Shown in pieces: positions 5,939 through 25,835 of a stretch of 25,835 nucleotides of DNA. Numbering within the stretch: the first letter of the stretch is position 1; each line of letters starts with the position of its first letter. Source of the stretch: a virus. A program made the translations under genes and the position numbers. Location of the stretch: positions 1-25,835 of IMG/VR virus record IMGVR_UViG_3300027771_000086, one strand, 5' to 3'. Below the pieces are notes generated by a model. The model was not told the DNA's origin. It did no database searches and worked only from the letters and a program-made list of their open reading frames with translations.

Positions 5939-6928
5939 ATGGCTTTTAACCAATCGGACGCTCTATTTGAGCAAGGCACAGACACTAACGGTAACTTCGG
6001 TAACTCAGTAGCTGGCCAAACTAACAGTTTCTTTCTTCCTTCGATTTACTCGAAGAAAGTTCTTAACTTCTTTCGCAAAGCTTCTGTAGCTGAAGCAATT
6101 ACCAACACTGATTACAGTGGTGAAATTTCGTCTTTTGGTGATTCTGTAAAGGTTATCAAAGAACCAGTAATTACTGTTTATCAGTATGAGCGTGGTGCAG
6201 ACGTAACTCAAACTAAGCTAACTGACCAAGAAATTACTTTGGTTGTTGACGTAGCCAACGCATTTAAATTCATCGTTGATGATATTGAAACTGCAATGTC
6301 TCACGTTAACTTTAAAGAAGTTGCTGCTTCTTCTGCTGCTTACGCATTGAAAGATGCTTTTGACGCAGGTGTAATTGCGAAGATGATCGCGGGCGTTTCA
6401 GCTTCAAGCCCTAACCACATCCTTGGTAGCGACAGTGCTACTGACCTAGCCGCCGGAACTTTTGACGGTACTGGTAACTTGGATATTGGTTTTGGAACTA
6501 ATGAGCATGATCCTCTTGATCTTATGGCGTACATGGCCCGTCTTCTTGACGAGCAAAGCATTCCAGAAGAAGGTCGTTGGTTCTTGGCTCCACCTAGCTT
6601 TTACGAGCAGTTGTCTCAGTCTAGCTCTAAGCTAATGTCTGTAGACTTCAACGCAGGCCAAGGCTCTATCCGTAACGGTCTAGTATCATCTGGCAAGCTA
6701 CGCGGCTTTGACATGTACAAGTCTAACAACATTGCTACTCCAAGCAATGCTGCGGGTCAAGTACTGTCTGGTCACATTAGCTCCACTGCAACTGCACAGA
6801 CTATCACAAGCACTGAGGTCATCCGTGATCCAGATAGCTTCGGTGACATCTGTCGTGGTCTGCACGTATATGGTGCTAAAGTATTACGTCCTGAAGCAAT
6901 GGTTTCAGCGTTCTACGGTATCGACTAA
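5939..6928 (+). CDS. Major capsid protein
   Basis: This 329-aa protein follows the scaffold gene after 33 nt, with a strong AGGAG ribosome binding site, and a hairpin terminator comes soon after it. The sequence suits an HK97-fold coat of podovirus size. It has an extended N-arm (FFLPSIYSKKVLNFFRKASV), an E-loop/strand region (GDSVKVIKEPVITVYQYERG), the segment AFKFIVDDIETAMSHVNFKE typical of spine-helix entry in T7-like and related coats, and an A-domain with EEGRWFLAPPSFYEQLSQSS. The last residues, ending in ALVSAFYGID-like sequence (EAMVSAFYGID), form the usual C-terminal strand. There is no N-terminal protease-cleavage delta domain, consistent with the separate scaffold. Assignment rests on position, length and fold-like pattern. 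Confidence 0.85.
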   Translation: MAFNQSDALFEQGTDTNGNFGNSVAGQTNSFFLPSIYSKKVLNFFRKASVAEAITNTDYSGEISSFGDSVKVIKEPVITVYQYERGADVTQTKLTDQEITLVVDVANAFKFIVDDIETAMSHVNFKEVAASSAAYALKDAFDAGVIAKMIAGVSASSPNHILGSDSATDLAAGTFDGTGNLDIGFGTNEHDPLDLMAYMARLLDEQSIPEEGRWFLAPPSFYEQLSQSSSKLMSVDFNAGQGSIRNGLVSSGKLRGFDMYKSNNIATPSNAAGQVLSGHISSTATAQTITSTEVIRDPDSFGDICRGLHVYGAKVLRPEAMVSAFYGID

Positions 6929-7160: not shown

Positions 7161-7931
7161 ATGGCAACAACCTACCTTGAATTAACTAATGAGCTTCTAC
7201 GAGAACTCAATGAAGTTGCCCTTACATCAACAACTTTCGCAGGCGCGTTAGGTGTTCAACAACATGTCAAAGACTCAGTAAACCGCGCTTACTTTGATAT
7301 TATAACTGAAGAACCACAATGGCCTTTTCTAGCTTCGGCAGAAAGTGGTGAGACAGATCCCATGTACGGCAACGTATATGTTGAGACTGTTGCAGGCACA
7401 AGATTTTATGAACTAAAACCCGCTAGTTCAAACATTACAACGGATTTTAGTTCAATAGACTGGGACAACTTCTACATGACCACCGTAGGTGTCTCAGGTG
7501 AAGTAGCTCCTTATGTAGCTAGAAACTTACGCTTTATGACTATAGAAGCTTGGAAAGACTTTCGCAGAATTTCGGAGAACTTAGATGATGCAGACTCTCA
7601 ACAATTTGGTGTACCTAACGCTGTTATACGTAGCCCTGACTCTCGCAAATTTGGACTCAGTCCCATTCCTGACAAGGTCTACCGCGTCTGGTTCTACGCT
7701 TGGGATCTTCCTTCAAGACTCTCTGGACACGGAGACACTATAGTTTTTCCAGATTTGTATACGGGCGTTCTACAAGCTAGAGCTAGGTACTACATCTGGC
7801 AGTTTAAAGATAACCCGCAAGCAGCAGCTTTTGCACTAGAAGATTATAGAAAAGGTTTACGTAGCATGCGCTCTAATCTTATTGAGCCAGTACCTGCGGA
7901 TATTAAAGATGACCGGATGAGGTTCGTTTAA
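7161..7931 (+). CDS. Head-tail adaptor (connector) protein
   Basis: This 256-aa protein begins with a helical stretch typical of podoviral adaptors (TTYLELTNELLRELNEVAL, then VKDSVNRAYFDIITEEPQWP). A beta-rich middle follows (TRFYELKPAS; FGVPNAVIRSPDSRKFGLSP; YRVWFYAWDLPSRLS). The C-terminal helices include VFPDLYTGVLQARARYYIWQ. This order (two N-terminal helices, a beta insertion, C-terminal helices) matches the adaptor family of short-tailed phages that includes T7 gp11-like tail tubular protein A and the SU10 adaptor. It binds beneath the portal and links it to the nozzle. The stop overlaps the next ATG by one base (TAATG), implying translational coupling with the nozzle gene, its structural partner. 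Confidence 0.75.
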   Translation: MATTYLELTNELLRELNEVALTSTTFAGALGVQQHVKDSVNRAYFDIITEEPQWPFLASAESGETDPMYGNVYVETVAGTRFYELKPASSNITTDFSSIDWDNFYMTTVGVSGEVAPYVARNLRFMTIEAWKDFRRISENLDDADSQQFGVPNAVIRSPDSRKFGLSPIPDKVYRVWFYAWDLPSRLSGHGDTIVFPDLYTGVLQARARYYIWQFKDNPQAAAFALEDYRKGLRSMRSNLIEPVPADIKDDRMRFV

Positions 7932-9535
7932 TGGCTGCTTCACAACCCTTTGGTATTTCATGCAGAGGTGGTTTAAATACTAACCTTAATCAACTTGAAA
8001 TGCTCGCACAGCCCGGAGTTGCTACAGAGTTATTAAACTTTGAAGTTAATCCAGATGGCGGGTACAGACGTATAAACGGTTACTCAGCTTTTGGTGATAC
8101 TCGACCTAACGGTGGTAATCGTATTCTTGGTGTGCAAGTATATGCAGACGGAGTAATTATTTGTAGTGGCGTTGGAATTTTCTTTAGTCAAGATGGCGAA
8201 ACTACTTGGTTACAGATTAACAAAGCAAGCGTTGCAAGTGGAGGAGATAACTTCTCAACTTTTTCAGGCCGCAGTGCAGACGATAGAACTGCACAAGCTC
8301 AAACATCTTTTGCAGTATTTGAAGGAAACACCGATTACGGCTCAGTTGTTATTACTGACGGAGTTAATAAGCCTTTTCTTTTTAAAATGACAGGAACAGG
8401 AACTTTAGCTAACCGTACATTTTTTGCAGAAGAAGTAACTGTTAGCGGGACAACAGCACCGACCACATGCGCTATACATAATAATCACTTAGTTGTAGCA
8501 GGCGCACCAACCGCAAAAAACACAATCTTTTATAGCTCAACACTTGATCCATCTAGTTTTTCTGGTTCAGGTGCAGGCAGCATCTTATTGCCAGACCAAG
8601 TAGTAGGCATCAAAAGCTTTCGTGATGACTTAATTATCTTTTGTCGCAATAGCATACACAAGCTTATCAACATTACTAGTTCTTCTAACATTGCAATTGT
8701 TCCAGTTACTAAAAACGTAGGTTGCTTGAGTTCACATAGCATCCAAGAGATTGGCGGTGACTTGGTGTTTCTTTCACCGGATGGCATACGTTCAGTAGCA
8801 GGTACAGCACGTATTGGTGACGTTGAATTAGGATCAGTAAGTCGGCAAATACAGTCTGTAATATCTACACTTGCAAAGTCTGTAAATACTTTTACGCTTG
8901 CTAGTACAGTACTCCGAAGCAAATCACAATACAGATTATTTTTTAGTCAGGTTGGTGGTGCTTCGTCTATTGCGCTTGGAATTATAGGAACATTAACACC
9001 TAACGGTTTTGAATGGTCTGAAACAAAAGGAATACAAGCAACAGGTCTAACATCGGGCTTTAACAAAGATGGCGTGGAAAAAACATTTCACGGAGATAGC
9101 AAAGGCTATGTTTATAACCATGACTCAGGCAATGCATTTTCTGATGATGGAACAGCTTTTAATATTTCAGCAAAATATAGCACACCCAATTATGATTTTG
9201 GAGACATTGGAACTCGAAAGACTTTGTACTACGTTAAAATATCTGTGTCTCCTGAAGGCCAGATACTTCCGTTTCTAAGACTTCGATATGATTACGAAGA
9301 CTTAGACATTCCTCAACCTGCACCATATCCCGTAGTAGGAATTCCAATTCCTTCTTCTTTTGGAAACGTAGCGTTTGCAGCATCAACATTTGGCGGCAGT
9401 AAAGATCCAATGTTTAGACAAGCAGTAGAAGGAAGTGGACACGTAACAAACTTTAGAATTACCAGTGATGACCAAAACGCACCCTATGCAATTAACGGCT
9501 TGTACGTTGATTACGTCCCATCAGGCAGGAGATAA
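7931..9535 (+). CDS. Tail nozzle / tail hub protein (tail tubular protein B-like)
   Basis: This 534-aa, strongly beta-rich protein is coupled to the adaptor gene by TAATG. Its N-terminus, PFGISCRGGLNTNLNQLEML and then TELLNFEVNPDGGYRRINGY, is a pattern I recognise in marine phage nozzle proteins: a GG-hairpin followed by a description of the first beta-propeller blade. The rest resembles propeller-like repeats (RILGVQVYADGVIICSGVGI; NHLVVAGAPTAKNTIFYSST; FRDDLIIFCRNSIHKLI; GGDLVFLSPDGIRSVAGTAR). Nozzle proteins of podoviruses (T7 gp12, P22 gp10) form the hexameric end of the short tail and carry the fibres. The adaptor gene upstream and the fibre gene downstream fit this. The fold assignment is by pattern, not by structure comparison. 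Confidence 0.75.
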   Translation: MAASQPFGISCRGGLNTNLNQLEMLAQPGVATELLNFEVNPDGGYRRINGYSAFGDTRPNGGNRILGVQVYADGVIICSGVGIFFSQDGETTWLQINKASVASGGDNFSTFSGRSADDRTAQAQTSFAVFEGNTDYGSVVITDGVNKPFLFKMTGTGTLANRTFFAEEVTVSGTTAPTTCAIHNNHLVVAGAPTAKNTIFYSSTLDPSSFSGSGAGSILLPDQVVGIKSFRDDLIIFCRNSIHKLINITSSSNIAIVPVTKNVGCLSSHSIQEIGGDLVFLSPDGIRSVAGTARIGDVELGSVSRQIQSVISTLAKSVNTFTLASTVLRSKSQYRLFFSQVGGASSIALGIIGTLTPNGFEWSETKGIQATGLTSGFNKDGVEKTFHGDSKGYVYNHDSGNAFSDDGTAFNISAKYSTPNYDFGDIGTRKTLYYVKISVSPEGQILPFLRLRYDYEDLDIPQPAPYPVVGIPIPSSFGNVAFAASTFGGSKDPMFRQAVEGSGHVTNFRITSDDQNAPYAINGLYVDYVPSGRR

Positions 9536-9541
9536 CCAGAC

Positions 9542-12500
9542 ATGGCAGGATCAAGTTATACTAGACAAAGCACACTTACAGATGGCGATACAATCACCGC
9601 TGCACTTTTTAATGACGAATACAATAAACTTGTATCTGCGTTTGCATACACTTCTACTGGAACTACCGGACACCAACATGACGGTGGAGCAGGAGAAGGT
9701 GGTAACATTGAAATTATTGGCGATCAAGATTTCTTAAACAAGCTTGTAGTCGATACCACTAACAACCGTTGGGGATTTTTTGTACAGGTAAGCAGTGCAG
9801 CAGTAGAACAGATTCGCATCCAAGACGGTGCAATTGTTCCTGTAACTGATTCAGACATTGACTTAGGTACTAGCTCTTTAGAGTTTAAGGACGGCTTCTT
9901 TGACGGAACTATCCATGTAGATACACTAGACGTAGATGCTAACGCAACCATTGCAGGCACTCTAGGCGTAACAGGCAACACAACTGTTGGTGGCACACTA
10001 GGTATAACAGGCAACACAACTATCGGTGGAACTCTTGTAGTCACTGGTACTACAACACTTAATGGCGGTACGCTTACTCTAGGTGACGCAGCAAGTGATA
10101 ATGTTGTATTCGGTGCAGATGTAAATAGTAATATTATCCCTAACACTGACAGTGCATTTGATCTTGGAAGCTCTGGACAAGAGTGGCGTGATCTTTACTT
10201 AGACGGTACAGCACACATAGATACACTAGATGTAGATGTGAACGCAACCATTGCAGGTACACTTGGTGTTACGGGTGTGTTGACTGCTTCTTCTTTAGAC
10301 ATTTCTGGAGATATAGACGTAGACGGCACTACAAACCTTGATGTTGTTGATATTGACGGAGCTGTTGACATGGCTACAACGCTTGCAGTTGCAGGCAACG
10401 TAGATTTTAATGGCGATTTAGATGTAGACGGCACTACAAACTTAGATGTTGTTGACATTGATGGTGCTGTAAACATGGCGACCACTGCACTCGTTACAGG
10501 CGTATTAACCACAACCGCTGCTACTGTGTTTAATGGTGGCTTTGCTTCTAATGCTGATTCTACTCTTGGCACTGATAAAAAAGTCCAGTTCAGAGACTCA
10601 GCAATCTACATTAACTCTAGTGCTGATGGACAACTAGACATAGTAGCTGACACAGAAATTCAAATAGCTGCAACTACAATTGATATTAACGGAGCTATCA
10701 ATGCAAGCGGTGAGATAATCGCTGCATCTCTAGACATCTCAGGTAACGTAGATATTGACGGAACTACTAACCTTGACGTTGTGGATATTGACGGTGCGGT
10801 TGATATGGCTTCTACGCTGACTGTTGCAGGTGTTCTAACAGGAGCTTCTTTAGACATCTCTGGCGATATAGATATTGACGGAACTACCAACCTTGACGTT
10901 GTGGATATTGATGGCGCAGTTGACATGGCTTCTACACTGACTGTTGCAGGAGTCCTAACAGGTGCTTCCTTAGACATTTCAGGCGATATAGATATTGACG
11001 GCACGACTAACCTAGACGTTTTAGATGTTGACGGTGCATCTAACTTTGCAGCAGATGTCACCTTTGCTACGGGTGCAGACATCATCACGGCTTCAGCAGG
11101 AACAAGTAACTTCCGCGCAGGCGTAAACGCAGGTAACAGCATTGCAAGCGGTGGTAATTATAATGTGGTCGTGGGCGATGAAGCAGGTACTGCGATTACT
11201 ACTGGTGATTTTAATGTTGCGGTTGGTACTTTCACTTTAGAGGCAGATACTTTAGGCGCTCGCTCTACTGCTATTGGATATGGTAGTTTGAGGACACAAA
11301 ATTTCACATCTGCTACCGATGCCTACAACACAGCAGTGGGTTTTGCCGCAGGAGCCGCAGTAACCGCAGGCGTTCAAAACACCCTCATCGGTGGTCTTGC
11401 AGGTGATGTCCTGACTACTGGCTCTTCTAATGTAGCATTAGGGCAATCTGCATTAGGGTCGGATGTAGCAGGAGCCAGAACTACTGCCATAGGTTATCAA
11501 GCCTTAACTTCTCAAAGTTTTTCTTCAGGAACTTATAGCTACAATACAGCATTAGGCTATAACGCAGGAGCCGCAGTAACCACAGGCAAAGAAAACACCC
11601 TAATTGGTGCTCAAGCGGGTGATTCGATTACAACTGGCTCTTCTAATGTTGCAGTAGGACAAGGCTCTTTAGACGCGAACACCACCGCTAATAACAATAC
11701 CGCAGTTGGACATGACTCTATGAAGTCTAATACAACTGGTGCAGAAAATACGGCAGTGGGCAAAGGTGCTTTAAATGGGAACACTACAGCTTCAAACAAC
11801 ACAGCAGTGGGCAGAAGTGCTTTATTAGCAAACACCACGGGCACAAGAAACAACGCAGTAGGAGCCTTAGCTTTAGACGCAAACACTACAGGTAATTACA
11901 ACAATTCTTTTGGCTACGCTTCGTTAAGCCAAAACACCACAGGGTCTAATAACCTCGCACTAGGAGATGCCGCTTTAAATGCTAATACAACAGGCACATA
12001 CAACGTAGCCGTTGGTGATCAAGCAGGTCTATCAGTAACCACAGGCGTTCAAAACACCATCGTGGGCGCACTAGCCGGTGACGCTTTAACGGATGCTGAT
12101 TTTAATGTAGCTGTCGGTCAACGCGCTCTTTCAGCAGACACTTTAGGCAGTAGGTCTGTTGCTATAGGTTATCTATCTTTACTTTCACAAAACTTTACTT
12201 CGGCAACCAATGCATATAATACAGCCGTAGGTTCTCAGGCAGGAATGTTAGTCACCACAGGCGTTCGTCAAACTTTAATTGGCGCACTAGCCGGTGACGC
12301 TCTAACAACTGGAGATAACAACACCGCAATCGGCTACAACTCTTTAAGCACAATGACTGTGGGTGACAGGAACGTAGCAGTTGGTGTAGGCACGTTAGCC
12401 ACTGCAAATGTAACCTCAAACGCTGATACCTACAACACCGCAGTGGGTTTTGATGCAGGTAAATCAGTAACCACAGGCGTTCAAAATGTTCTTATGGGTG

Positions 12501-13609
12501 CTTTAGCAGGTGATGCTTTAACTTCCTCAAATAACAACCTTGCGATTGGTTATAAGGCACTTAGTGCTGACACCGTTGGAACAAAAACTACTGCCATAGG
12601 TTTTGAAGCTCTTATGAGCCAAAACTTTACTTCAAATACGGATAGTTTCAACGTGGCTGTGGGTTACACCGCAGGTAGGGGAATCACCACAGGCACTGAG
12701 AATGTTTTAATCGGTGGTCTTGTAGGTGATTCAATCACTACTGGCGAAAGAAATACCGCTATAGGCGGTCAAGCATTAAGCAGCAATACAACAGCATCTG
12801 CTAACTCCGCAGTGGGTTACAAGGCATTGTTTGAAAACACGACAGGCGCTAATAATACTGCGGTGGGTCAAGACGCTTTAAGGCTTAACACCACTGCCTC
12901 TAACAACACAGCCGTTGGATTGTCTGCTTTACGCGCAAACACCACAGGCGCTAACAACACTGCTGTCGGACACTCATCAGGAACCGCAGTAACAACAGGC
13001 ATTGAAAACACTTTTCTTGGCTCTGTTGCAGGTAATGGTGTTACATCTGGCAGTAAAAACGTTTGCATTGGATATAATGTTGATAGCGGTAGCGTAACTG
13101 ATGAACACGTTATCGTTATTGGTCATGGAATTACAGGAAATGGCAATGACTTTAGTTTCGGTAAAGCTTCCCATGTTGTAAGTAATGACTTTAACGCTGA
13201 CGCTAACTGGTCACGTTCTTCAGACGAACGACTAAAGAAAAACATTACAAATCAAACACTAGGTTTAGATTTTATCAACGCCCTTCGGACTGTTAAGTAT
13301 AACTGGAAAGCAAGTGGTGAGCTTGATGCTTCGGATGCTCAGTTAGCACATCTACGAGAAGAAGATGCTGACGGTAATATTATTAACCACATGGACACAG
13401 ACGTAGTAATGCACAACTTTATTGCTCAAGAAGTTAAAAGCGCATTGGATACTGCGGGTGTATCAAACTTTGGGGGATGGAAAGAAGATCGACACGGTGT
13501 ACAGCAAGTGTCCCGTGAGATGTTTGTAATTCCTTTAGTTAAAGCTATGCAAGAACAAACCGCTGTTATCGCAGCACTCACCGCAAGAATAGAAACCCTA
13601 GAAGGATAA
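9542..13609 (+). CDS. Tail fibre with YadA-like head repeats and C-terminal S74 chaperone
   Basis: This 1355-aa protein is the receptor-binding fibre. The N-terminal anchor (about 5-55) contains LTDGDTITAALFNDEYNKLV and GHQHDGGAGEGGNI, seen in many marine phage fibres. Residues about 100-330 hold beta-repeat shaft sequence, with a duplicated block around HVDTLDVDANATIAGTLGVTG. Residues 395-514 hold 40-residue Asp/Ile-rich units (LDISGDIDIDGTTNLDVVDI). From about 539 to 1204 a trimeric-adhesin-like head follows: 17-residue units (NNTAVGxxALxxNTTG) and five 72-residue super-units. S1227-K1232 in SSDERLKKN are the Ser-Lys pair of peptidase family S74. Self-cleavage before S1227 should release a 129-residue trimerisation chaperone ending in a coiled coil (QEQTAVIAALTARIETLEG). 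AGGAG inside the nozzle gene end serves as its ribosome binding site. Confidence 0.92.
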   Translation: MAGSSYTRQSTLTDGDTITAALFNDEYNKLVSAFAYTSTGTTGHQHDGGAGEGGNIEIIGDQDFLNKLVVDTTNNRWGFFVQVSSAAVEQIRIQDGAIVPVTDSDIDLGTSSLEFKDGFFDGTIHVDTLDVDANATIAGTLGVTGNTTVGGTLGITGNTTIGGTLVVTGTTTLNGGTLTLGDAASDNVVFGADVNSNIIPNTDSAFDLGSSGQEWRDLYLDGTAHIDTLDVDVNATIAGTLGVTGVLTASSLDISGDIDVDGTTNLDVVDIDGAVDMATTLAVAGNVDFNGDLDVDGTTNLDVVDIDGAVNMATTALVTGVLTTTAATVFNGGFASNADSTLGTDKKVQFRDSAIYINSSADGQLDIVADTEIQIAATTIDINGAINASGEIIAASLDISGNVDIDGTTNLDVVDIDGAVDMASTLTVAGVLTGASLDISGDIDIDGTTNLDVVDIDGAVDMASTLTVAGVLTGASLDISGDIDIDGTTNLDVLDVDGASNFAADVTFATGADIITASAGTSNFRAGVNAGNSIASGGNYNVVVGDEAGTAITTGDFNVAVGTFTLEADTLGARSTAIGYGSLRTQNFTSATDAYNTAVGFAAGAAVTAGVQNTLIGGLAGDVLTTGSSNVALGQSALGSDVAGARTTAIGYQALTSQSFSSGTYSYNTALGYNAGAAVTTGKENTLIGAQAGDSITTGSSNVAVGQGSLDANTTANNNTAVGHDSMKSNTTGAENTAVGKGALNGNTTASNNTAVGRSALLANTTGTRNNAVGALALDANTTGNYNNSFGYASLSQNTTGSNNLALGDAALNANTTGTYNVAVGDQAGLSVTTGVQNTIVGALAGDALTDADFNVAVGQRALSADTLGSRSVAIGYLSLLSQNFTSATNAYNTAVGSQAGMLVTTGVRQTLIGALAGDALTTGDNNTAIGYNSLSTMTVGDRNVAVGVGTLATANVTSNADTYNTAVGFDAGKSVTTGVQNVLMGALAGDALTSSNNNLAIGYKALSADTVGTKTTAIGFEALMSQNFTSNTDSFNVAVGYTAGRGITTGTENVLIGGLVGDSITTGERNTAIGGQALSSNTTASANSAVGYKALFENTTGANNTAVGQDALRLNTTASNNTAVGLSALRANTTGANNTAVGHSSGTAVTTGIENTFLGSVAGNGVTSGSKNVCIGYNVDSGSVTDEHVIVIGHGITGNGNDFSFGKASHVVSNDFNADANWSRSSDERLKKNITNQTLGLDFINALRTVKYNWKASGELDASDAQLAHLREEDADGNIINHMDTDVVMHNFIAQEVKSALDTAGVSNFGGWKEDRHGVQQVSREMFVIPLVKAMQEQTAVIAALTARIETLEG
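10724..11040 (+). repeat. 120-bp tandem repeats encoding the DIDG shaft units
   Basis: Three in-frame units start at 10724, 10844 and 10964 and are 120 bp long (40 residues). The third diverges after about 75 bp. The core GATATTGACGG recurs exactly 120 bp apart (10752, 10872, 10992). Two older, more diverged copies lie at about 10300-10500. Wobble-position differences show the units are not brand new. They build a repetitive beta shaft whose length can vary by recombination. Confidence 0.85.
11207..13153 (+). repeat. Fibre head array: 17-residue units and five 72-residue super-repeats
   Basis: Super-repeats of exactly 216 bp (72 aa) lie at 11207-11422, 11423-11638, 12098-12313, 12314-12529 and 12530-12745. 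Each is built from blocks of 17+22+16+17 residues around ADTxGxRxTAIGY, SQNFTSxT and TTGVQNTLIGALAGD. Between the second and third lie nine consecutive 17-residue units (11639-12097). After the fifth lie eight more (12746-13153). The NTAVGxxAL and NTTG signatures resemble the left-handed beta-roll of YadA-type trimeric adhesin heads. Confidence 0.9.
13220..13606 (+). other. Peptidase S74 intramolecular chaperone domain of the fibre
   Basis: This is the C-terminal 129 residues of the fibre, beginning at the predicted autoproteolysis site SDERLKKN. In endosialidase-type S74 domains the serine at this position and the lysine five residues later form the catalytic dyad, and both are present (S1227, K1232). 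YNWK, HNFIAQEVKSAL and EMFVIPLVKAMQEQ are the usual conserved family segments. The domain aligns and trimerises the fibre and is then cut off. Confidence 0.9.
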
Positions 13610-17024: not shown

Positions 17025-18332
17025 GTGGGATTTTTAAGTAAAGCGTGGAAAGGAATTAAAACAGGTGTTAAAAGCATTGCAAAAGGAGTTAAAAAAGCTT
17101 TTAAAAGTTTTGGTAAATTTATGGGTAAGTTTGGAGTACTAGGCCAAGTAGCTATGTTTTTTGTTATGCCGTATGTGGGGGCTGCGTTAGGAGCGGCTTT
17201 TACAGGAGCGACAACTGCATTATCTACATATACAGGTATAGGATCAACTATTGCTAATGCTGCGGGTAGCGTAATGAAGTACGCGGCAAACGCAGCTAGT
17301 AAAGTCGGCAACACTTTTTCTAATATTACTTCAGGAATTACTGACACTCTTGGAAACTTTGCAAAAACCGCAGGTAAGAAAATGGGGTTTACAGGCGATA
17401 TGTTTGCAAACGCATCAGATAACTTTTTTAGTTCAGGTGGTACTGGCAATGGAGGAATGTCTGCGTGGGAAAAAAGCACAGGCGCAACTTCTCGTTTTGC
17501 AAATGTTACCGAAAAGTTTACAACGGCTATAGATCAGACATTAAAAGAAAGCATGCCTAAAGTTAATGAAGGACTTCAAGGAACACTTGATGAACAACTT
17601 TCAAGCATAACGCCAGATTCTGCAAGATTTGATAATATTCCGGGTTCTGTTGTAACGCCTGAAGGACTTGTTAATCCAGATATAACAACTGGTATAACTA
17701 GTCCTACTATAGACGGACTAGGGGTTGTTGATAGCTCTATTTCAACAGCCACAACATTTGGAAACGCACCTGTTGTTGTAACGCCTAAAATAAATAATCA
17801 GTTTGGTGCAGGAGGAATACAAGATGTAGCAAGCTCTATACCTTCAGCTACTGGCGAACTAATTAGCACTACAGTTGTTCCAGACCCTAGTTTTCAGCCG
17901 GGATTTGGGCCACAACAAGATACTAGAAGTTTGCTTACAAAAGTAAAAGATTACACAACAGAGCAAGCAAGTTCTGCTATGGATAGAGTTACAGCAGTTA
18001 AAGATAAAGTTATAGCTGATCCTATTGGAACAGTAAAAGATGTTGTAATTGGAGATGATCCTGTAGGCAAAATAAGAGACACCGCAGTTACTAAAACTGT
18101 AAACACTGCAATTAATAAGTTAGCCTATGGTGATCCAGAAGCTCCTACTTATAATTCTTACGCTACTTACATCCCAAGCTTTGACACCTTTGGTAGCGGC
18201 GGTGGAGGGTTTGGCGCTCAATCAATAATGGGTGCGCGTGATTTTGAACAGAATGTAAGTAATAATTCTAATCCTTACGGCTACACAGCTTTTCAATATA
18301 ACCAATACATGTCTCAATATGGCACAGCTTAA
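17025..18332 (+). CDS. Internal virion protein with cationic amphipathic N-terminus
   Basis: This 435-aa protein starts at GTG 17025, which is supported by GGAGG at 17011-17015, 9 nt upstream. The first 35 residues are a strikingly basic amphipathic helix (FLSKAWKGIKTGVKSIAKGV, then KKAFKSFGKFMGKFGV) with a repeated G-K-x-x-K spacing, followed by a hydrophobic Gly/Ala region (about 40-90, VAMFFVMPYVGAALGAAFTG). The remainder is Ser/Thr/Gly/Asn-rich with no domain I know, ending in a Gly/Tyr/Asn-rich tail (NPYGYTAFQYNQYMSQYG). The start resembles that of internal or lysis-associated proteins of many marine phages and membrane-active peptides. The inferred role is ejection and membrane insertion at infection. 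Confidence 0.7.
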   Translation: MGFLSKAWKGIKTGVKSIAKGVKKAFKSFGKFMGKFGVLGQVAMFFVMPYVGAALGAAFTGATTALSTYTGIGSTIANAAGSVMKYAANAASKVGNTFSNITSGITDTLGNFAKTAGKKMGFTGDMFANASDNFFSSGGTGNGGMSAWEKSTGATSRFANVTEKFTTAIDQTLKESMPKVNEGLQGTLDEQLSSITPDSARFDNIPGSVVTPEGLVNPDITTGITSPTIDGLGVVDSSISTATTFGNAPVVVTPKINNQFGAGGIQDVASSIPSATGELISTTVVPDPSFQPGFGPQQDTRSLLTKVKDYTTEQASSAMDRVTAVKDKVIADPIGTVKDVVIGDDPVGKIRDTAVTKTVNTAINKLAYGDPEAPTYNSYATYIPSFDTFGSGGGGFGAQSIMGARDFEQNVSNNSNPYGYTAFQYNQYMSQYGTA

Positions 18333-18974: not shown

Positions 18975-20459
18975 ATGGCTATTAGAGATTTTGGTAATTC
19001 GTTACTTGCAGATGTTAGAAAACGTAGTGACGAAAGCAAAGTAGAAGCTCGTAGGTACGCAGAGAAACAAGAAAACAAAAATCTTTTAAAAGGTTTAGCC
19101 GTAATGGGGGCAGGAAAAATAGCTCAAGGTGTTGGCGGCTTTATTAAAAATGCAGTAGCTGACAAAACTGAAGATTTTTTAGCTAATAGTTCGTTGCAGA
19201 ATAATCAAATATATATGTCTAAAGCGACAACAGAAATTGAAGAACAAACAAAAGATTATACTGATGCTAAAGCAAAAGACATTAGTTTGAATAACTTCTA
19301 TTTAAATCAGAACGCTACACAAAGACTAGCTCAGTTAAAAATAGAAGAGCCTGAAAAATATCAAACTGAAGATGACACTTATTATATTTCTGCTATGATG
19401 AAAAAACAAATTAATATAGATAAAGCAACAGAGCAAGTTGCATACAACACAAAAGTACGTGGCATGGCTGTTGATTTTGCAGCAGGTAAAGCCTCTGGTA
19501 AAACATTAACATCTTTATCAACTAGAGAAAAAAACAGAGGTTTAACCTCAAGATTTTTTAGAAAAATAACTGGGCAAACAACATCTGTAGAAGCTTTTAA
19601 TGCTTCAATGGATGATTTAAGACAGGTAGAAATTGCTAAAGAACTTTACGCTATAAATCCTGAAGTTCTTGAAGCAGCTAGGATTGTTGCTGCAAAAACA
19701 GGCAGTCCTGCCGCAGCCGCTGCTGCCGTAGGAATGAACTTTACTCCTGAACAGCACAAAATAATTTTAGAAAGAGCTAAAGCCGGACATAAAGTTTCAT
19801 TTACAAGTGACGTAGAGAAAGATATTAACGGTAATTTAACTTCTATTACAACTCAAACAACAACGAATAGTAAAGGAGATGTGATAGGGAAACCTGTAGT
19901 AACTAGTAAGCAAATAGGAAATAAAACAAAAGTTTTAACACTGGAAGAGATGACTAAAGTTATTTCTAACAGCAACAAAATTATGGAAAACGTAGAAGCA
20001 ATGGTAGGTCAAAAAGGCAAAGCTGACTTTATAAAAAAAGCAACTGAACTAGGAATTTATAGAGATCCTTCAAGGATGACTCCTGAAGACTATATAAAAC
20101 TTCAGCAACTGTCACACGATACCGCAAAATATACAACAATAGAGCCTAAAGATAAAATAAGCGAAGAGGTTGCTTTGGCGCGAGCAAAATTTTTAGAAAC
20201 ACAAGACCGAAAATTTGCAATCATAGGCAATGATGCTCTGCCTGAAGAAGAAAGAAGAAAAGCGCAGAACGAACTAATAATAGGTTTAGCAATGATTGAA
20301 GAAGCTGTTACATCGTCAGCTAAAATTGCGGCAGGACTACAGGCAGGGACAGCAACACAGAAAAAAGCAAAACAACCCGTGAAAGGAGAACGTATGGCAG
20401 ACCCCACCCGTCCCAACAAGTTATTAGAGTTTGACGGAAAAGATTGGATACAGCTATGA
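18975..20459 (+). CDS. Internal virion protein of unknown function (494 aa)
   Basis: AGGAG at 18961-18965, inside the end of the previous gene, lies 9 nt before the ATG. The protein is mostly helical and charged. An N-terminal Lys/Arg/Glu stretch (LLADVRKRSDESKVEARRYA) is followed by a moderately hydrophobic Gly-rich segment (about 37-62, LLKGLAVMGAGKIAQGVGGF), long helices rich in Lys, Ala, Thr and Gln, a short Ala run (SPAAAAAAVG, about 242-251), and a compact C-terminus (PNKLLEFDGKDWIQL). No enzyme signature is seen. Its stop overlaps the next start (ATGA at 20456-20459), indicating coupling to the giant protein gene, with which it may act during ejection. Confidence 0.7.
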   Translation: MAIRDFGNSLLADVRKRSDESKVEARRYAEKQENKNLLKGLAVMGAGKIAQGVGGFIKNAVADKTEDFLANSSLQNNQIYMSKATTEIEEQTKDYTDAKAKDISLNNFYLNQNATQRLAQLKIEEPEKYQTEDDTYYISAMMKKQINIDKATEQVAYNTKVRGMAVDFAAGKASGKTLTSLSTREKNRGLTSRFFRKITGQTTSVEAFNASMDDLRQVEIAKELYAINPEVLEAARIVAAKTGSPAAAAAAVGMNFTPEQHKIILERAKAGHKVSFTSDVEKDINGNLTSITTQTTTNSKGDVIGKPVVTSKQIGNKTKVLTLEEMTKVISNSNKIMENVEAMVGQKGKADFIKKATELGIYRDPSRMTPEDYIKLQQLSHDTAKYTTIEPKDKISEEVALARAKFLETQDRKFAIIGNDALPEEERRKAQNELIIGLAMIEEAVTSSAKIAAGLQAGTATQKKAKQPVKGERMADPTRPNKLLEFDGKDWIQL

Positions 20460-23400
20460 GTACAGCTATGAATATTGATTTTACTGAAACTCTCTTAAAT
20501 AAAGTAAAAAAAGCTGTTACCTCTGGAATTCTTTTGCCCAAAGATTATGGAGATGCAATTCTGGCTTCTCGTAATGATCTTGCGGTTGAGCAGTATCTTG
20601 GAAGTTTAATGCCTGAGTATAACGTACAAGCATTACCTGCTGAGTCTGAAGAAACAGCAACGGAAGTAGTCAGTCCCGTTGTTCAAACGTTTTCTGAAGG
20701 AGCCGCTAGGAAAGTTGAAGAGGTTGAAGAGCCTGTTCAACAAACAGAAAAAAAGATTTATAAAGGATCTCTTGATGAAAATGGCCGTCCTATTAAAACG
20801 CCAGTTAAGCAAGTAGAAAAAAGAATTTATAAAGGATCTCTTGATGAAAATGGTCGGCCTATTAAAACTCCAGTTAAGAAACAGTTTGGGCCGTTACGCA
20901 CAGGATACAAAGGAATAGATGAAGAAGTAAATGCTTTAATGTCTAAACCAATAACAGAAACAGAAACAGAACTAGAGATAGAAGACGAAGACGATGATAC
21001 TGGATACATGATTGTATATCGTGGCAACATGCCAAGAAGAATTAAACGTAGCGAGTATCTTAAATCTACAAAGCAAGGTGTTGTAGATTTAGAAAACTTT
21101 GGCGTTGATATTCAAAAAACGTCTATTAAAGTTGTAAGAGGCGCAGTAGATTTAGCAGCTAGTGGGTTTTTAAAAGCTTTAACAGATATAGACTTGTCAG
21201 ACGCTTCGCCTAAAGACCGCGAAGACTTTGTAAATATCTTAACAGAAAAAGCAATTGAAACAACTCCGGCTGCTTTTGTATTGGGCGATTGGAAAAACAA
21301 CCCTGCTATAGTTAATCAAGACACTGGTCGTATGCAGTTTGCAACCACTAAAGCAGGAATGGCTTTAGAAATGGGTGCGGTTGCATTTTCTATAAATAAA
21401 GCTTCTGCGGCTACAGAGCTTGCATTTTTAGGATCGCGGTTTGTTCCAACAATTGCTCCTATATCGGCTAACTGGGCGCGTACTACGGTTGTAGCTACTC
21501 AGAATGCAGGTAAGTATATAACTACTAAAAATGTAACAAATCCAAACCTTGTTAAAGGTCTTTCATTTTTAGCAGGCGCTGAACTAGTAACACAGGTGTA
21601 TTTTGATCCAGATGATAGTATGTTTAATGCACTTGAAGAAGCAATACCTGAAGGCGCGGGCGGTAAAATAGAAATGCTTAGAGATATAAGTTCGTTTTTG
21701 TCTTCAGAAACAACTGATTCAGAACTTGAAAAACGTCTAAAACTTTCTGTTGAAGGCTTAGTAGTATCTGGTATTTTTACAGGTCTTATAAAATCTCCTA
21801 CTATTGCTCGATATATGGTAGGCAAAGATCCTTCTCAGATGACTAAACTAGAACAAGAAACTATATTACTAAAAGCTTTAGAAGACGAAAAACAAATAAG
21901 AATGATGCAAGATCCTTCTCAGCTTACATTAATTAAAGAAACCCCTGAAGGTTTAGCGCAAGTAGAACGACAACGAGATTCTTTCTTATTTAGAATGAAT
22001 CAAAAATGGTTTCAAAGTCGTGGCTACTCTACGCCTCTAATGTTTCACGCAGCAAACAACGCTAAGTTTACACAGAAAGCACTTGTTAATGATGCTCAGT
22101 TTGTTGCAGAACAATTAGACCGCGCAATAATTAGCGCAGCAGATGATCCAAATATTAGTAATAAAGTTTTTAACTTGTTGGAAACAGATGTTAATGCAAT
22201 ATTAAAGCTCGATGTAGACCAACAAGCCAGTGCTATGTCTAAAGAATATAAAGTTCCTGAAGACGTAGCAGAGCAAGTTTTAGAATTTAGAAGACTTCAA
22301 GACGGGTTGTCACAACGTATTTTAAATATGGACGGTTTTAGTGACGAAGCTAAAGAAGTAATAACTGAAAACCTTGGAAAATATGTACGAAGAACGTACC
22401 GCGCTTATGAAGATGCAGGATACAAGCCCACCAAAGCTGTAAAGAAAAATGCTATAAAATACTTTATTGATAAGATACAAGCGAAAGCGGAAGTTGACGG
22501 TATAGTTATATCTCCAAAGCAAGCTCTTAAACAAGCTGAAAGAGAAGTTAAAAAACTTCTTAAAAACGATGATGAAATGATAGATTATGTAGCTCAAATA
22601 AACAGAGTGGCAAGCTTAAAAAAGAAGAAAGATATTGATCCTGAAATACGCGCACTGCTTGGTGAAATTACAAACCCTTCTGAGAAGATTGTTCTTTCTC
22701 TTGCCAAGCTTACTCGCGTTTCTGAAATGCAACAATATTATAACGTCATCAATCAACTATCCAAAGGAGCCAAGGGATATGTTCAAGGCAAAGAAAACGT
22801 AGCGCGTGGCTTAACTGTCCAGATTAAAGGAACTAATTCTATACTAGACTCTAAGTGGACTACTCCTGAAATAGAACGTGCTATTTTAAATAAAGAATCA
22901 TCATACGCAACCTTAACGGACAGCGACACTCTTCTTGCAGACGGTTGGAGATTTTATGTAGGAGCTAAAGGTTTGTCTCAGTCTATGCAAACAGTTTACA
23001 ACGTGTCTACACAAGCGCGTAACGCTATTGGGGGCGCTTCGTTTCTTGTTGCCAACGGTCATGTGGGTCTTGGACTTAAAGGATCTTTAAAATCTGCCAG
23101 TGTTTTAGAAGATAAAATATTTGGAGTAAGATCAGGAGTTGGACGTAAGACAGGCTTATATACAGTAGATGAAAAAGCCCTTTCTGCGTACTACTCAGAG
23201 ATGCAAAGCCTTGGCGTGGTTGGTACAAGTGTAAACGTAAATCAATTCCGTGAGATGATAAGCACAGGTTTTAAAGGCTCTACTAGCATAGCTAGAGATA
23301 TAGGTGCGGGACAGTCTAGGACAGTAAAAGGCGCAAAAACAATATTTACTAAACCACGGGACATTTATTCAGGCACAGATGACTTTGCTAAAATAATTTC

Positions 23401-25711
23401 TTTTGAAAACGAAATAGACACCTTACGTCTGGCTTTTCCAGATGCGTCTGAAAGTTTATTAAAACAACGCGCAGCTTCAATTGTAAAAAATACACTTCCT
23501 AACTATGAAGCTATCCCAATGGGAATTAAACAGCTTCGTAACTTACCTTTAGGTAACTTTATTTCTTTTCCTGCCGAAGTATTGCGTACAAGTTTTCATA
23601 TTGTTAAGCAGTCAGCTAAAGAAATAAACTCTACAAACTCTGTTATAAAACGAAGAGGACAAGCACGGCTACTTGGTTTTGTTACAGCCAATGTAGGATA
23701 CGGCATGCTTGCAGAAATGTCTCACAAAACATTTAACATGAGCGATCAAGAAGTAGAAGACCGCAGAATATTAAAATCAGGCGAGTACAGTTCGGGTCAC
23801 GATTTAATTTATTCTCAAGATGAAAACGGTGATTACTACACTACAAATACAGAGTACTTAAACTCTTATTACTATCTCAAAGAACCCGCTTTGGCTTTTT
23901 ATGATCGGATTAAAAACGGTAACTTGAGAGGCGAAGAATTAGATAGCATGCTACTTGGTGCTTTGGGTGCAGGTATTAAAGCGTTAACAGATCCATTTAC
24001 AGCAGAGTCTATGGTTTTAGAGCCGTGGATACGGATGGCTGCTGCTTCTCTTTCTGAAGACGGTGAAGATTTTAACGGTGTGTTGTTGTTTCCTGACAAA
24101 GCTAGTGGCGTTGATAACTTTTCAACTGTTATTACTGAAGCTTTAAAACCTTTAATTCCCGGGACTGTTAAGAACGCAATGAAGTTGTCGGACGCTATTC
24201 AAGAAAAGCCAGACAAGTGGGAAGGGCGTTTTAGAAATATAGAATACGCAAAGATGGAACAGTTTGGAATTAAAAAAGATCTTTACCGTGCAGATGACTA
24301 CCTTAAATGGGCAGCAAGAGACTATAGGCTACAAAACAGGCAAAACAGAATGGATGGAGTTAATCTAGAAACTACAAGTGAAGATATGATAGTAGACTAT
24401 TTTAAAACTAATTCCGTTGAGTATCAATATCAGCAAGAGCTTTGGGTTAAAGGTTCAGCTTATTCAAGATTGTTTGGAAGAGCAAAAGCTCTTGATCTTT
24501 TAGTTGAGGTGGGTATTCCTCTAAATAAAGCAGATACAATTTTAAACGGGCAATTTATACCGCTACTATATTCTACTGATCCAACAAGGCACAGAAGGGC
24601 TGCTCTTTTAACACAGTCTGGAGAAGATCAAAGTAAAATGATTCGGCAAATGGACGAAGCTGAAGTGTTGCAGTTTAGAGCTTTTAAAGAAATGCAAACT
24701 TTATCTTTATTTAATCCTGAAGGCTATTCATTTACTCCTCCAGATAAAAACCAAAGAAAATTAGAAATAGATCCTGAGTTTGATACCTCGTTTTTAAATC
24801 CTCCGGCAGTTAAAAAAGCTACGGGTGGTGAGATATCTAAGCCTGTTGCTAACGCGCCTACGGAACCTGATGAGCGTATCAATAAGCTTACAGGACTGCC
24901 GTACAACGAAGAGGCAGGAGCGGCTTACATGGATGCGGATGATCCTTTAAGGGCTATGAACATGGCAGCGGGTGGAAGGGTTAAAAAAGGTCTAGGCTCT
25001 TTACTTTTAAAAGCGCTCCCAGTAGAAGAAGCAATTGAAACAGCCGTCCAAAGAAAAGCTAGGCGTATTGCTAATAACAGCGACTCATCAGAAACTCAAA
25101 GATCAAACACTACAAGCACAGCTAGAAAAGCTAGTGAGTATTTAGACGAGCAAGGAGCAGAGGGGCTTACGCTTGACTACGGAGCAGGGCTTGGAAAAAA
25201 TGCAAGAGCTATAAACGCAGACGAAACTTTTGAGCCGTTTCCACAAAAAGGATTCAAGCCTAGTTATATTGATCCTACGCTTATTCCTGAAGGGAGGTTT
25301 GGCAGACTTATTTCTACTAACGTGCTTAATGTGTTGCCGCGAGACATTAGGGATGATGCTGTACTAACAATTGGAAAGAGTTTAAAAGACGGGGGCCAAG
25401 CTGTTGTTCATGCGTGGGACATTGCAGCTATTAAAGCGAGAATGAAAAGCAAAAACTTTAAAGCAGCCGAAGAGTCTAACTCGTCTAGAAGTCTTGAAGG
25501 CGGTAAGTTTCAAAAGGGGTTTAGTAAAGCTGAACTCAGAGATTACATACAAGAGACTTTAGGTGACGGCTTTACAGTATCTACTGTGCCAAACAAACGC
25601 GGAATTAAAATGTCATCTGTTCTGATAAAGAAGATAGCTAAAGGAGAAGAGCGGCTACAAAAACACTGTGGCGGTAAAGTACTAGACACATTGAAAAGGA
25701 ACCGGACGTAA
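20456..25711 (+). CDS. Giant internal virion protein with C-terminal methyltransferase domain
   Basis: I chose ATG 20456 (1751 aa), which overlaps the preceding stop as ATGA. An upstream in-frame TTG at 20444 is possible but unlikely. Residues about 98-143 are a 23-residue tandem duplication (IYKGSLDENGRPIKTP twice). The long middle (about 200-1430) is helical with several hydrophobic Gly/Ala/Val stretches (KAGMALEMGAVAFSINKASA; LKLSVEGLVVSGIFTGLIKS; LVANGHVGLGLKGSLKSASV) and the segment LPLGNFISFPAEVLRTSFHI, which I recognise from giant proteins of marine phages. Residues about 1475-1510 carry a RINKLTGLPYNEEAGAAYMD/AGGRVKKG linker. The final part (about 1545-1735) is a class I SAM-dependent methyltransferase (LTLDYGAGLGKNARAI with D1574, N1622-V1626 NVLNV). 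It is probably ejected with the DNA. Its stop overlaps the next start (TAATG). Confidence 0.8.
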   Translation: MSTAMNIDFTETLLNKVKKAVTSGILLPKDYGDAILASRNDLAVEQYLGSLMPEYNVQALPAESEETATEVVSPVVQTFSEGAARKVEEVEEPVQQTEKKIYKGSLDENGRPIKTPVKQVEKRIYKGSLDENGRPIKTPVKKQFGPLRTGYKGIDEEVNALMSKPITETETELEIEDEDDDTGYMIVYRGNMPRRIKRSEYLKSTKQGVVDLENFGVDIQKTSIKVVRGAVDLAASGFLKALTDIDLSDASPKDREDFVNILTEKAIETTPAAFVLGDWKNNPAIVNQDTGRMQFATTKAGMALEMGAVAFSINKASAATELAFLGSRFVPTIAPISANWARTTVVATQNAGKYITTKNVTNPNLVKGLSFLAGAELVTQVYFDPDDSMFNALEEAIPEGAGGKIEMLRDISSFLSSETTDSELEKRLKLSVEGLVVSGIFTGLIKSPTIARYMVGKDPSQMTKLEQETILLKALEDEKQIRMMQDPSQLTLIKETPEGLAQVERQRDSFLFRMNQKWFQSRGYSTPLMFHAANNAKFTQKALVNDAQFVAEQLDRAIISAADDPNISNKVFNLLETDVNAILKLDVDQQASAMSKEYKVPEDVAEQVLEFRRLQDGLSQRILNMDGFSDEAKEVITENLGKYVRRTYRAYEDAGYKPTKAVKKNAIKYFIDKIQAKAEVDGIVISPKQALKQAEREVKKLLKNDDEMIDYVAQINRVASLKKKKDIDPEIRALLGEITNPSEKIVLSLAKLTRVSEMQQYYNVINQLSKGAKGYVQGKENVARGLTVQIKGTNSILDSKWTTPEIERAILNKESSYATLTDSDTLLADGWRFYVGAKGLSQSMQTVYNVSTQARNAIGGASFLVANGHVGLGLKGSLKSASVLEDKIFGVRSGVGRKTGLYTVDEKALSAYYSEMQSLGVVGTSVNVNQFREMISTGFKGSTSIARDIGAGQSRTVKGAKTIFTKPRDIYSGTDDFAKIISFENEIDTLRLAFPDASESLLKQRAASIVKNTLPNYEAIPMGIKQLRNLPLGNFISFPAEVLRTSFHIVKQSAKEINSTNSVIKRRGQARLLGFVTANVGYGMLAEMSHKTFNMSDQEVEDRRILKSGEYSSGHDLIYSQDENGDYYTTNTEYLNSYYYLKEPALAFYDRIKNGNLRGEELDSMLLGALGAGIKALTDPFTAESMVLEPWIRMAAASLSEDGEDFNGVLLFPDKASGVDNFSTVITEALKPLIPGTVKNAMKLSDAIQEKPDKWEGRFRNIEYAKMEQFGIKKDLYRADDYLKWAARDYRLQNRQNRMDGVNLETTSEDMIVDYFKTNSVEYQYQQELWVKGSAYSRLFGRAKALDLLVEVGIPLNKADTILNGQFIPLLYSTDPTRHRRAALLTQSGEDQSKMIRQMDEAEVLQFRAFKEMQTLSLFNPEGYSFTPPDKNQRKLEIDPEFDTSFLNPPAVKKATGGEISKPVANAPTEPDERINKLTGLPYNEEAGAAYMDADDPLRAMNMAAGGRVKKGLGSLLLKALPVEEAIETAVQRKARRIANNSDSSETQRSNTTSTARKASEYLDEQGAEGLTLDYGAGLGKNARAINADETFEPFPQKGFKPSYIDPTLIPEGRFGRLISTNVLNVLPRDIRDDAVLTIGKSLKDGGQAVVHAWDIAAIKARMKSKNFKAAEESNSSRSLEGGKFQKGFSKAELRDYIQETLGDGFTVSTVPNKRGIKMSSVLIKKIAKGEERLQKHCGGKVLDTLKRNRT
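20747..20884 (+). repeat. 69-bp tandem duplication in the giant protein gene
   Basis: Two adjacent 69-bp units (20747-20815 and 20816-20884) encode 23 residues each with the core IYKGSLDENGRPIKTPVK. They are near identical at DNA level and differ mostly at synonymous sites, as expected for a fairly recent in-frame duplication. They form a hydrophilic, proline-ended linker close to the N-terminus. Confidence 0.9.
24916..24931 (+). promoter_or_regulatory. Possible internal ribosome binding site and start for the methyltransferase
   Basis: AGGAG at 24916-24920 is followed after 8 nt by an in-frame ATG at 24929 (residue 1492 of the giant). Starting here would give a separate 260-residue protein with a short linker plus the whole methyltransferase domain. 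Spacing and match are as good as at the confirmed starts in this window. The AGGAG also encodes part of EEAGAAYM, so it could be chance. Confidence 0.35.
25081..25680 (+). other. Class I SAM-dependent methyltransferase domain
   Basis: This is the last 200 residues or so of the giant protein. A helix (TARKASEYLDEQGAEG) leads to motif I LTLDYGAGLGKNA (D1574, G1576, G1578, G1580), the SAM-binding glycine loop. FEPFPQKGFKPSYIDPTLIP, then GRLISTNVLNVLPRDIRDDA, and SLKDGGQAVVHAW complete strands 4-5 with the usual D/G-G turn. There is no DPPY/NPPY or PC motif, so it is not a typical DNA adenine or cytosine methylase. The substrate is unknown. Confidence 0.8.
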
Positions 25712-25835
25712 TGAGCAACTTTAAATACTTTAAGCTAGAAGACTTTGACTGCCAAGAAACGGGCGAGAATGAAATGTCAGAAGCGTTTATACATTGTTTA
25801 GACGAACTACGAGAAACCTGTGGCTTTCCGTTTAT
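25711..25835 (+). CDS. M15-type peptidase, probable endolysin (N-terminal part only)
   Basis: ATG 25711 overlaps the stop of the giant gene (TAATG), with AAGGA 9-10 nt upstream. Only the first 41 codons are inside the window. The sequence FKLEDFDCQETGENEMSEAF, then LDELRETCGFPF, is the characteristic start of M15 D-Ala-D-Ala carboxypeptidase/L-Ala-D-Glu peptidase-like phage endolysins. The zinc ligands (H, D, H) lie beyond the right edge and cannot be checked. It would degrade peptidoglycan cross-links once the holin opens the inner membrane. Confidence 0.85.
   Translation, partial: MSNFKYFKLEDFDCQETGENEMSEAFIHCLDELRETCGFPF

Follow-up and report, generated by a model that had tools for sequence, protein, structure and literature searches.

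In polymorphic toxins, a constant delivery part is combined with exchangeable C-terminal enzymatic domains. The same layout is found in MuF-effector fusions (PMC9503650), and enzymes that are ejected into the host have precedents in T4 Alt and N4 vRNAP (PMC9503650; PMC5512222). Polyvalent proteins (Iyer et al., 2017; PMC5512222) are large, are encoded near virion genes, combine enzymatic domains of mixed kinds (ART, lysozyme) and are thought to be injected; the methylases described in them are of the DarB adenine type. DarB of phage P1, for which about 45 copies in the head are predicted, is packed into the head, co-ejected with the DNA like the Dar proteins in general and active in antirestriction (PMC5512222; PMC12810830). 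Finally, T7 gp16 is a giant, largely helical ejection protein with an N-terminal transglycosylase and a C-terminal domain presumed to be cytoplasmic, five basic C-terminal residues of which are needed for infectivity, and domain swapping among ejection proteins has been noted (PMC8954989). Here, we compare with these systems a giant protein of 1751 amino acids (aa) that contains a class I S-adenosylmethionine (SAM) methyltransferase near its C-terminus and is encoded by a single IMG/VR virus record of 25,835 bases (IMGVR_UViG_3300027771_000086; this whole stretch is called the window).

Like P1 DarB and the DarB-like methylase-helicase polyvalent proteins, the window protein combines a methyltransferase with giant size. 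However, DarB-type enzymes are described as N6-adenine methyltransferases with an NPP(Y/F) motif and an attached helicase, whereas the window protein lacks this motif, yielded no helicase in a Pfam scan and carries a methyltransferase of another family. With polyvalent proteins it shares its size and its place near virion genes, but the methyltransferase family and the fixed slot between a conserved block and a tail are different. It is giant and largely helical as gp16 is, but its cargo is C-terminal and its core has no significant match to solved ejection proteins. The constant part with swappable C-terminal domains recalls MuF-effector fusions and polymorphic toxins; in contrast to both, the constant part is another one, and the cargo often precedes a conserved tail instead of ending the protein. 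The available portions of PMC10853773 and PMC5512222 describe neither the methyltransferase family nor the slot, the word "methyltransferase" is absent from the main texts of PMC10386132 and PMC8954989, and our literature searches located no published description of this family in such a slot. Large injected phage proteins with enzymes are an established class; the novelty, as far as these searches show, lies in the part played by this methyltransferase family, in its relationship to TIGR04096 and in the layout of the slot (empty-site orthologues, block and tail).

The methyltransferase domain and its family

The open reading frame (ORF) of the giant protein and the elements of its methyltransferase are:

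20456–25711, plus strand: giant ORF, 1751 aa, probable internal virion (ejection) protein with C-terminal methyltransferase cassette (ORF scan, orthologues L094–L098, phage phi18:3 homologue)
25061–25654, plus strand: class I SAM methyltransferase cargo domain, aa ~1536–1733 (tblastn, alignments, AlphaFold, PDB comparison, dN/dS)
25172–25201, plus strand: motif I, the SAM-binding loop LDYGAGLGKN, aa 1573–1582; all 41 aligned sequences retain L, D and two G
25229–25243, plus strand: FEPFP after strand 2; E and P invariant in 41 sequences
25316–25333, plus strand: TNVLNV, aa 1621–1626, presumably in the place of motif IV; VLNV common to TIGR04096-type proteins
25505–25537, plus strand: KFQKGFSKAEL with the family hallmark QKGF..EL; FQR..E in TIGR04096-type proteins

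An earlier note on this DNA had claimed that the frame of the giant protein runs without interruption into a class I methyltransferase. This holds, as the frame is open across all 1751 codons and both parts belong to the same polypeptide. The domain recurs with 100% identity in two more IMG/VR contigs from two datasets (L002 and L003), with 84% identity in L004 and with 73% in L005; it likewise lies within a giant frame in L003, L004 and L005, and L002 is cut by its contig end. The sequence motifs quoted at the time are all present, with KDGGQAVV at aa 1644–1651 in addition to LDYGAGLGKN and TNVLNV. The structure prediction that had been proposed as a check returned a Rossmann-type methyltransferase (predicted local distance difference test, pLDDT, 89.0; predicted template modeling score, pTM, 0.85), whose best PDB neighbor (VIA) aligns over 176 residues with Z 15.9 and a root-mean-square deviation (rmsd) of 3.0, and Z was at least 8 for 985 of 1000 aligned chains. 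Together with the GxGxG-type motif I (LDYGAGLG) and the acidic residue after strand 2 (FEPFP), which by analogy with class I methyltransferases probably contacts the SAM ribose, this identifies aa ~1536–1733 as a class I SAM methyltransferase, for which catalysis appears plausible. Since the PDB neighbors comprise sugar, small-molecule, quinone and tRNA methyltransferases (METTL6 and Trm9 among them), the fold does not name the substrate. Within aa 1536–1751, a motif scan found neither [DNSH]PP[YFWL], the motif IV of DarB-like and amino DNA methyltransferases, nor the catalytic PC of C5-cytosine DNA methyltransferases, in agreement with the earlier remark that DPPY/NPPY and PC are absent.

A tblastn search with the domain retrieved 12 phage records, which represent 10 phages because two appear in duplicate, with E-values from 1e-9 to 7e-32. 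The alignment of 10 family members has 23 invariant columns, and the stretches LDYGxGxG, EPFP, NVLNV, QKGF and EL are conserved in the family alignments. Nine of the 10 members match Pfam Methyltransf_23; the window copy does so with E 0.032 and 14.4 bits, under the cut-off of 27, and on its own reached no family over cut-off in the Pfam, PHROGs and NCBIfam scans. The comparison with known methyltransferase families suggested in the earlier note thus produced fold neighbors and a distant relative (see below), but no assignment of the window copy to a described family. Ratios of nonsynonymous to synonymous substitution rates (dN/dS) were 0.20 for window versus L004, 0.22 for window versus L005 and 0.12 for L004 versus L005, which indicates purifying selection on the domain; the pair of window and L006, in which silent sites are saturated, stands outside these comparisons. 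Two other matches were set aside: one to hutU (E 0.03–0.07) was taken as chance, and an identity as a pentatricopeptide repeat (PPR) protein, suggested by a PDB sequence search with mostly designed proteins and E-values down to 6e-15, was rejected because no single stretch passed (the score being a sum over repeats) and because the predicted fold is that of an alpha/beta methyltransferase.

TIGR04096 (NCBIfam, dnd_rel_methyl) is the family named "DNA phosphorothioation-associated putative methyltransferase", a name that points to a Dnd setting. The two families have LDYGxGxG, VLNV and FQ(K/R) motifs in common; they differ in that the window domain is fused to a probable virion protein. Seven of the 10 family members match TIGR04096 at E ≤ 1 (best 7.3e-8; the window copy itself is not among them), and in a second set six of eight members match it with 18.3–32.7 bits against a curated cut-off of 150; these matches cover model positions 21–154 of 478 only. 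A profile alignment with hhalign against a TIGR04096-type profile (two proteins so annotated and one Streptomyces homologue) gave a probability of 97.9 and E 3.8e-13 over 123 columns. Because this match is strong but the scores remain far under the cut-off, we regard the window family as a distant relative of TIGR04096 and not as a member. A search of a plasmid collection with a family member gave 12 matching records of up to 29.6% identity, two of which are annotated as TIGR04096-type. On two alphaproteobacterial plasmids, TIGR04096-annotated proteins (L110:3419-5365 and L111:3371-5380) are encoded directly 3' of a gene with an FtsK/SpoIIIE domain, and the two genes are perhaps a defence pair. 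A scan of bacterial genomes recovered nine family loci from 126 pattern matches, all in contigs of metagenome-assembled genomes (MAGs) or uncultured isolates; TIGR04096 matched in one of eight bacterial genomes bearing family loci, below cut-off.

An optional cassette between a conserved block and a tail

The methyltransferase lies in a slot that is bounded by conserved elements of the giant protein:

22253–24235, plus strand: constant core, aa 600–1260, mostly helical (blastp, alignment, model)
24821–24982, plus strand: signature block, aa 1456–1509, immediately before the cargo slot (alignment, IMG/VR relatives)
25667–25708, plus strand: conserved C-terminal tail CGGKVLDTLKRNRT, last 14 codons, separate from the domain (motif count)

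When the body of the giant protein was used as the query, five further contigs (L094–L098) were found to encode the same protein without the methyltransferase; a sixth match, L093, comes from the same contig as L003. Identity to the window protein over most of the body is 54–56% in L094, L095, L096 and L098 and 36.5% in L097. In the window, NMAAGGRVKKG is followed by ~230 residues including the methyltransferase and then by CGGKVLDTLKRNRT, whereas these orthologues pass from NMAAGGRV or NMAAGGKV straight into the tail and end with NMAAGGRVQKNAGGKVLNALKRNCS (L094, L098), NMAAGGKVLNKLKGGCS (L095, L096) or NMAAGGKVLNQLRRNCN (L097). Conversely, the bodies of L004 and the window protein are only 29–31% identical, but their cassettes are 84% identical, with a sharp switch near aa 1440: per 60-residue step, 6–28 of 51–60 residues agree until aa ~1440, and then 39 of 48 and 44, 50, 52 and 54 of 60. 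L005 has 30% identity in the body and 73% in the methyltransferase. As empty-site orthologues exist and diverged bodies carry cassettes that are far more alike, the cassette has been gained or lost and exchanged, and by these alignments the methyltransferase is an optional, exchangeable unit. This goes beyond the earlier note, as do the relationship to TIGR04096 and the stand-alone family members described below. The end of the giant protein in L143 (336 aa from the motif) contains the first ~20 residues of a methyltransferase like that of L140, followed by a complete, window-like one (67.5% identity), an arrangement that reads like the scar of a cassette replacement.

The block of ~54 residues is conserved among otherwise diverged giant proteins, and the slot lies between it and the C-terminal tail GGKVLxxLKR. 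The block has 343 relatives in IMG/VR, the best 80 of which were used; among them, L116 and L117 correspond to the contigs already listed as L003 and L004, the contigs of L094–L098 recur, and several contigs appear in both the block set and the domain set or under two locus ids. Twenty-five of these 80 loci have fewer than 60 residues from the motif and therefore no cargo. A profile search detected the methyltransferase in four (L116, L117, L140 and L143); three more candidates from a text search for QKGF (L139, L141, L142) were dropped after this search. Fifty-five loci have at least 100 aa after the motif, and 20 slot regions chosen from these were scanned with Pfam. Seven regions gave matches over cut-off, namely to Phage_lysozyme (L127, L189), Phage_lysozyme2 (L176), LysM (L178, L187, L190) and Phage_L5_gp82 (L173); six matched below cut-off only (Phage_L5_gp82 and DUF6973 twice each, Hydrolase_2 and TraF_2 once each), and seven matched no Pfam family at E 0.01. 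The slots of L153, L177, L180, L184, L185 and L191 comprise 447–814 aa without a Pfam match over cut-off, and a GGKV..L motif inside those of L177, L180 and L191 may separate successive modules.

Of the 55 ORFs that contain the block and exceed 900 aa, some of them near-duplicates, 40 gave a blastp match to the core. Eighteen of these 40 have an empty slot, and the other 22 have 136–887 residues from the motif. Recognized cargos among the core-bearing ORFs are the methyltransferase (L116, L117, L140, L143), LysM (L187) and Phage_lysozyme2 (L176), the remainder being weak or unrecognized; the carriers of gp82, LysM and lysozyme domains in L173, L178, L189 and L190 had no blastp core match, and L127 is too short for the comparison. 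In BFVD, 12 of 28 matches to the core at E ≤ 0.001 are named "large polyvalent protein associated", and one is a protein of phi19:3. A search of PDB sequences with the core profile gave nothing significant.

The tail motif, GG[KR][VI][LYIF]xxL(x)[KRGNS], lies in the final 30 residues of 29 out of 64 distinct giant proteins and exactly 13 residues from the end in 24 of these 29, and it accompanies the methyltransferase, other cargos and empty slots. It did not occur in 54,014 core residues, was found in one of 422 other ORFs and appeared 0.01 times on average, and at most once, in shuffled C-terminal parts. Because the motif was defined on the counted sequences, which are kin by descent and include near-duplicates, these counts are descriptive and not an independent test.

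Probable virion location, proposed delivery and possible substrates

The earlier note had assumed that the giant protein is part of the virion. Consistently, the gene lies among virion genes, with PHROGs matches to a portal/head-tail adaptor (921–3101), a major head protein (5939–6928), a tail protein (7161–7931), an amidase/virion-structural protein (7931–9535) and a tail spike with a Pfam S74 chaperone domain (9542–13609) all upstream, and these upstream genes are, judged by such matches, probably the late region of a short-tailed phage. Moreover, a protein of Cellulophaga phage phi18:3 (gp123) with 25% identity to aa 634–1125 is annotated as "structural protein" on the basis of experimental tandem mass spectrometry (MS/MS) proteomics. 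Late-gene position and this homologue support a virion protein, and we consider a location of the giant in the virion likely.

We hold it to be probable, as the best explanation of all observations, that the giant belongs to the internal virion (ejection) proteins, is of the polyvalent type and has a C-terminal cargo slot. This slot, between the ~54-residue block and the short basic tail, would be filled by recombination with various domains or left empty, and its cargo in the window phage would be a catalytically plausible class I SAM methyltransferase from a phage family distantly related to TIGR04096. The protein would be packaged in the capsid and, by analogy with T7 gp16, P1 DarB, T4 Alt and N4 vRNAP, ejected with the DNA, so that the enzyme could act in the host ahead of phage gene expression. 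Overall, the earlier note was right in its facts, and its interpretation, an injected early enzyme for counter-defence or host takeover, was a reasonable idea that is now partly supported.

Several observations weigh against this explanation. The case for a virion location comes from gene order and from the annotation of a homologue, and this homologue, phi18:3 gp123, corresponds to no more than ~490 aa of the body and is absent among the methyltransferase matches. The blastp search found no core in 15 of the 55 long block-bearing ORFs. The core was modeled with only moderate confidence (pLDDT 69), and the matches of this model to the ejection-core proteins 8vb2 (Z 5.4, rmsd 5.8, 163 aligned residues) and 9vvp (Z 3.1, rmsd 8.0, 152 aligned residues) are insignificant, lying within noise and below unrelated transporters. 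LPD38 was not detected in eight records in a search whose controls were equally silent, so that it had no positive control. The tail motif is missing at the end of 35 of the 64 distinct giant proteins, some of which have a closely similar block (L120–L123, L127), and with seven of the 20 scanned slot regions free of Pfam matches and six below cut-off, the label "effector" is unsupported for these regions. Furthermore, 27 of 75 relatives of the domain are stand-alone proteins that need not be injected, and nothing in the evidence names the substrate.

For the slot as a whole, we tentatively propose a polymorphic arrangement in podovirus ejection proteins, in which core and block stay constant, the effector is exchanged, and the C-terminal tag GGKVLxxLKR loads or ejects what precedes it. 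On this reading, the methyltransferase would belong to a set of effectors that act before phage gene expression and are exchanged in response to local host defences. Capsid-targeting sequences of T4 and cargo-loading peptides of encapsulins offer analogies for such a tag, and by a further analogy, which is a guess, the basic tail could act like the basic C-terminal residues of gp16. If correct, the sequence between block and tail would reveal the proteins that a phage delivers ahead of its own gene expression, the different modules would point to a built-in means of delivering different tools into the host at infection, and the tail, provided that it serves for loading or ejection, could be used to place chosen proteins in phage particles. 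A methyltransferase family other than DarB would join the candidate virion-associated enzymes, with a distant link to a family whose name refers to a defence system based on DNA modification, and the orthologous giants with an empty slot provide a natural control by which function and delivery are directly testable.

As to the substrate, methylation of nucleic acid, either of the incoming phage DNA or of a DNA or RNA component of host defence, as an early counter-defence is the reading we weakly favor, because of the relationship to TIGR04096 and the packaging-linked gene settings of the family. It nevertheless falls somewhat short of an even chance in our judgment, since amino-methyltransferase motifs are absent and the structural neighbors are mixed. 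These same features would suit a delivered enzyme with another kind of target, be it a small molecule (such as a metabolite or a defence signal), a protein or part of the cell envelope. In favor of this are the missing NPPY-type and PC motifs, the best structural neighbors, which methylate small molecules and sugars and among which the tRNA enzymes METTL6 and Trm9 also appear, and the wall-related domains in some other slot regions. However, substrates cannot be read from neighbors within so widespread a fold as that of class I, and the nearest named sequence relative, TIGR04096, is tied, if by name only, to a DNA modification system; we regard such a substrate as rather doubtful.

It also appears unlikely that the methyltransferase works in the producing cell or particle, on packaged phage DNA or a head protein, with the fusion serving only to bring it to the packaging site. 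This possibility arises from the genomic settings of the family, which has 339 relatives in IMG/VR, the best 80 of which were analyzed. Among loci L018–L092 (n = 75), 27 have the domain as a closed stand-alone ORF (320 aa at most), a further 40 have it in varied positions of a closed ORF of at least 553 aa (the longest 2466 aa), and in eight the ORF runs off the contig end. The stand-alone gene directly follows TerL and directly precedes the portal gene in L056 (7899–8612), is separated from TerL by a 150-aa ORF and followed by the portal gene in L053 (7839–8606), precedes the portal gene in L046 (1328–2221) and follows a terminase gene in L085 (7668–8585), and in the Roseobacter phages CRP-738 and CRP-3 the domain is part of a large protein encoded one or two small genes after the portal, all of which fits action at the packaging site. 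In the window, by contrast, the giant gene that bears the methyltransferase lies far from the portal gene and after the tail genes, and the domains to which the methyltransferase is joined elsewhere in the family (ART-PolyVal, lysozyme, cell wall hydrolase) suit delivery better than packaging. The adjacency of stand-alone methyltransferases to terminase and/or portal in all four contigs whose neighbors were scanned asks for an explanation of its own.

A catalytically dead domain that functions as a structural or SAM-sensing module would be in keeping with the weak scores of the window copy against general methyltransferase profiles, but is quite improbable given the retention of the invariant motif I and E-P residues and a dN/dS of ~0.2. 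An artefact (chimeric contig or chance frame), for which no supporting evidence was found, is practically negligible, since the fusion recurs in contigs with 100, 84 and 73% identity and the frame is open for 1751 codons.

Further relatives and neighboring features

In the window protein, the methyltransferase is the sole domain recognized by the Pfam and PHROGs scans; in some relatives it is accompanied by ART, lysozyme or cell wall hydrolase in the same polypeptide. A Pfam scan of 12 fused proteins found ART-PolyVal in L006 (over cut-off) and in L012 and L035 (below), Hydrolase_2 in CRP-3 gp36, Phage_lysozyme in HTVC104P gp54 and SAP in L025. Only methyltransferase matches were obtained for L032, and L009 (Myrna), L031 and L067 had no Pfam match at all. 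DUF7178 (PF23802) recurs beside the methyltransferase in the giants of CRP-3 (L008), L012, L030 and L089. Mycobacterium phage Myrna carries the domain in gp97, which is encoded two genes ahead of the major head protein. Pelagiphage HTVC104P has it in a gene of 4.9 kb, and phage MD07 in a protein of ~3100 aa that lies two genes after an internal virion protein. In MJing1, it forms a small gene upstream of a DUF5309 gene.

Between position 14314 and the giant gene, PHROGs matched only the ORF at 17025–18332, to tape-measure families (best E 4.8e-7). A plain hydropathy scan of the giant peaked at 1.31 (aa 428) and gave no clear sign of a membrane segment, so that a membrane span like that of gp16 is unsupported by this measure. 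The start of the giant gene shares an ATGA overlap with the upstream ORF at 18975–20459, and the last base of its stop codon is the start of the next gene (in the stretch 25711–25835), the product of which is a putative M15-type peptidase endolysin. A gene with a similar start lies 3' of the giant in L094–L098. One further feature belongs to the N-terminal part of the giant:

20750–20881, plus strand: tandem repeat of ~22 aa in two near-identical copies

At this place, the orthologues L095 and L098 appear to hold different repeats.

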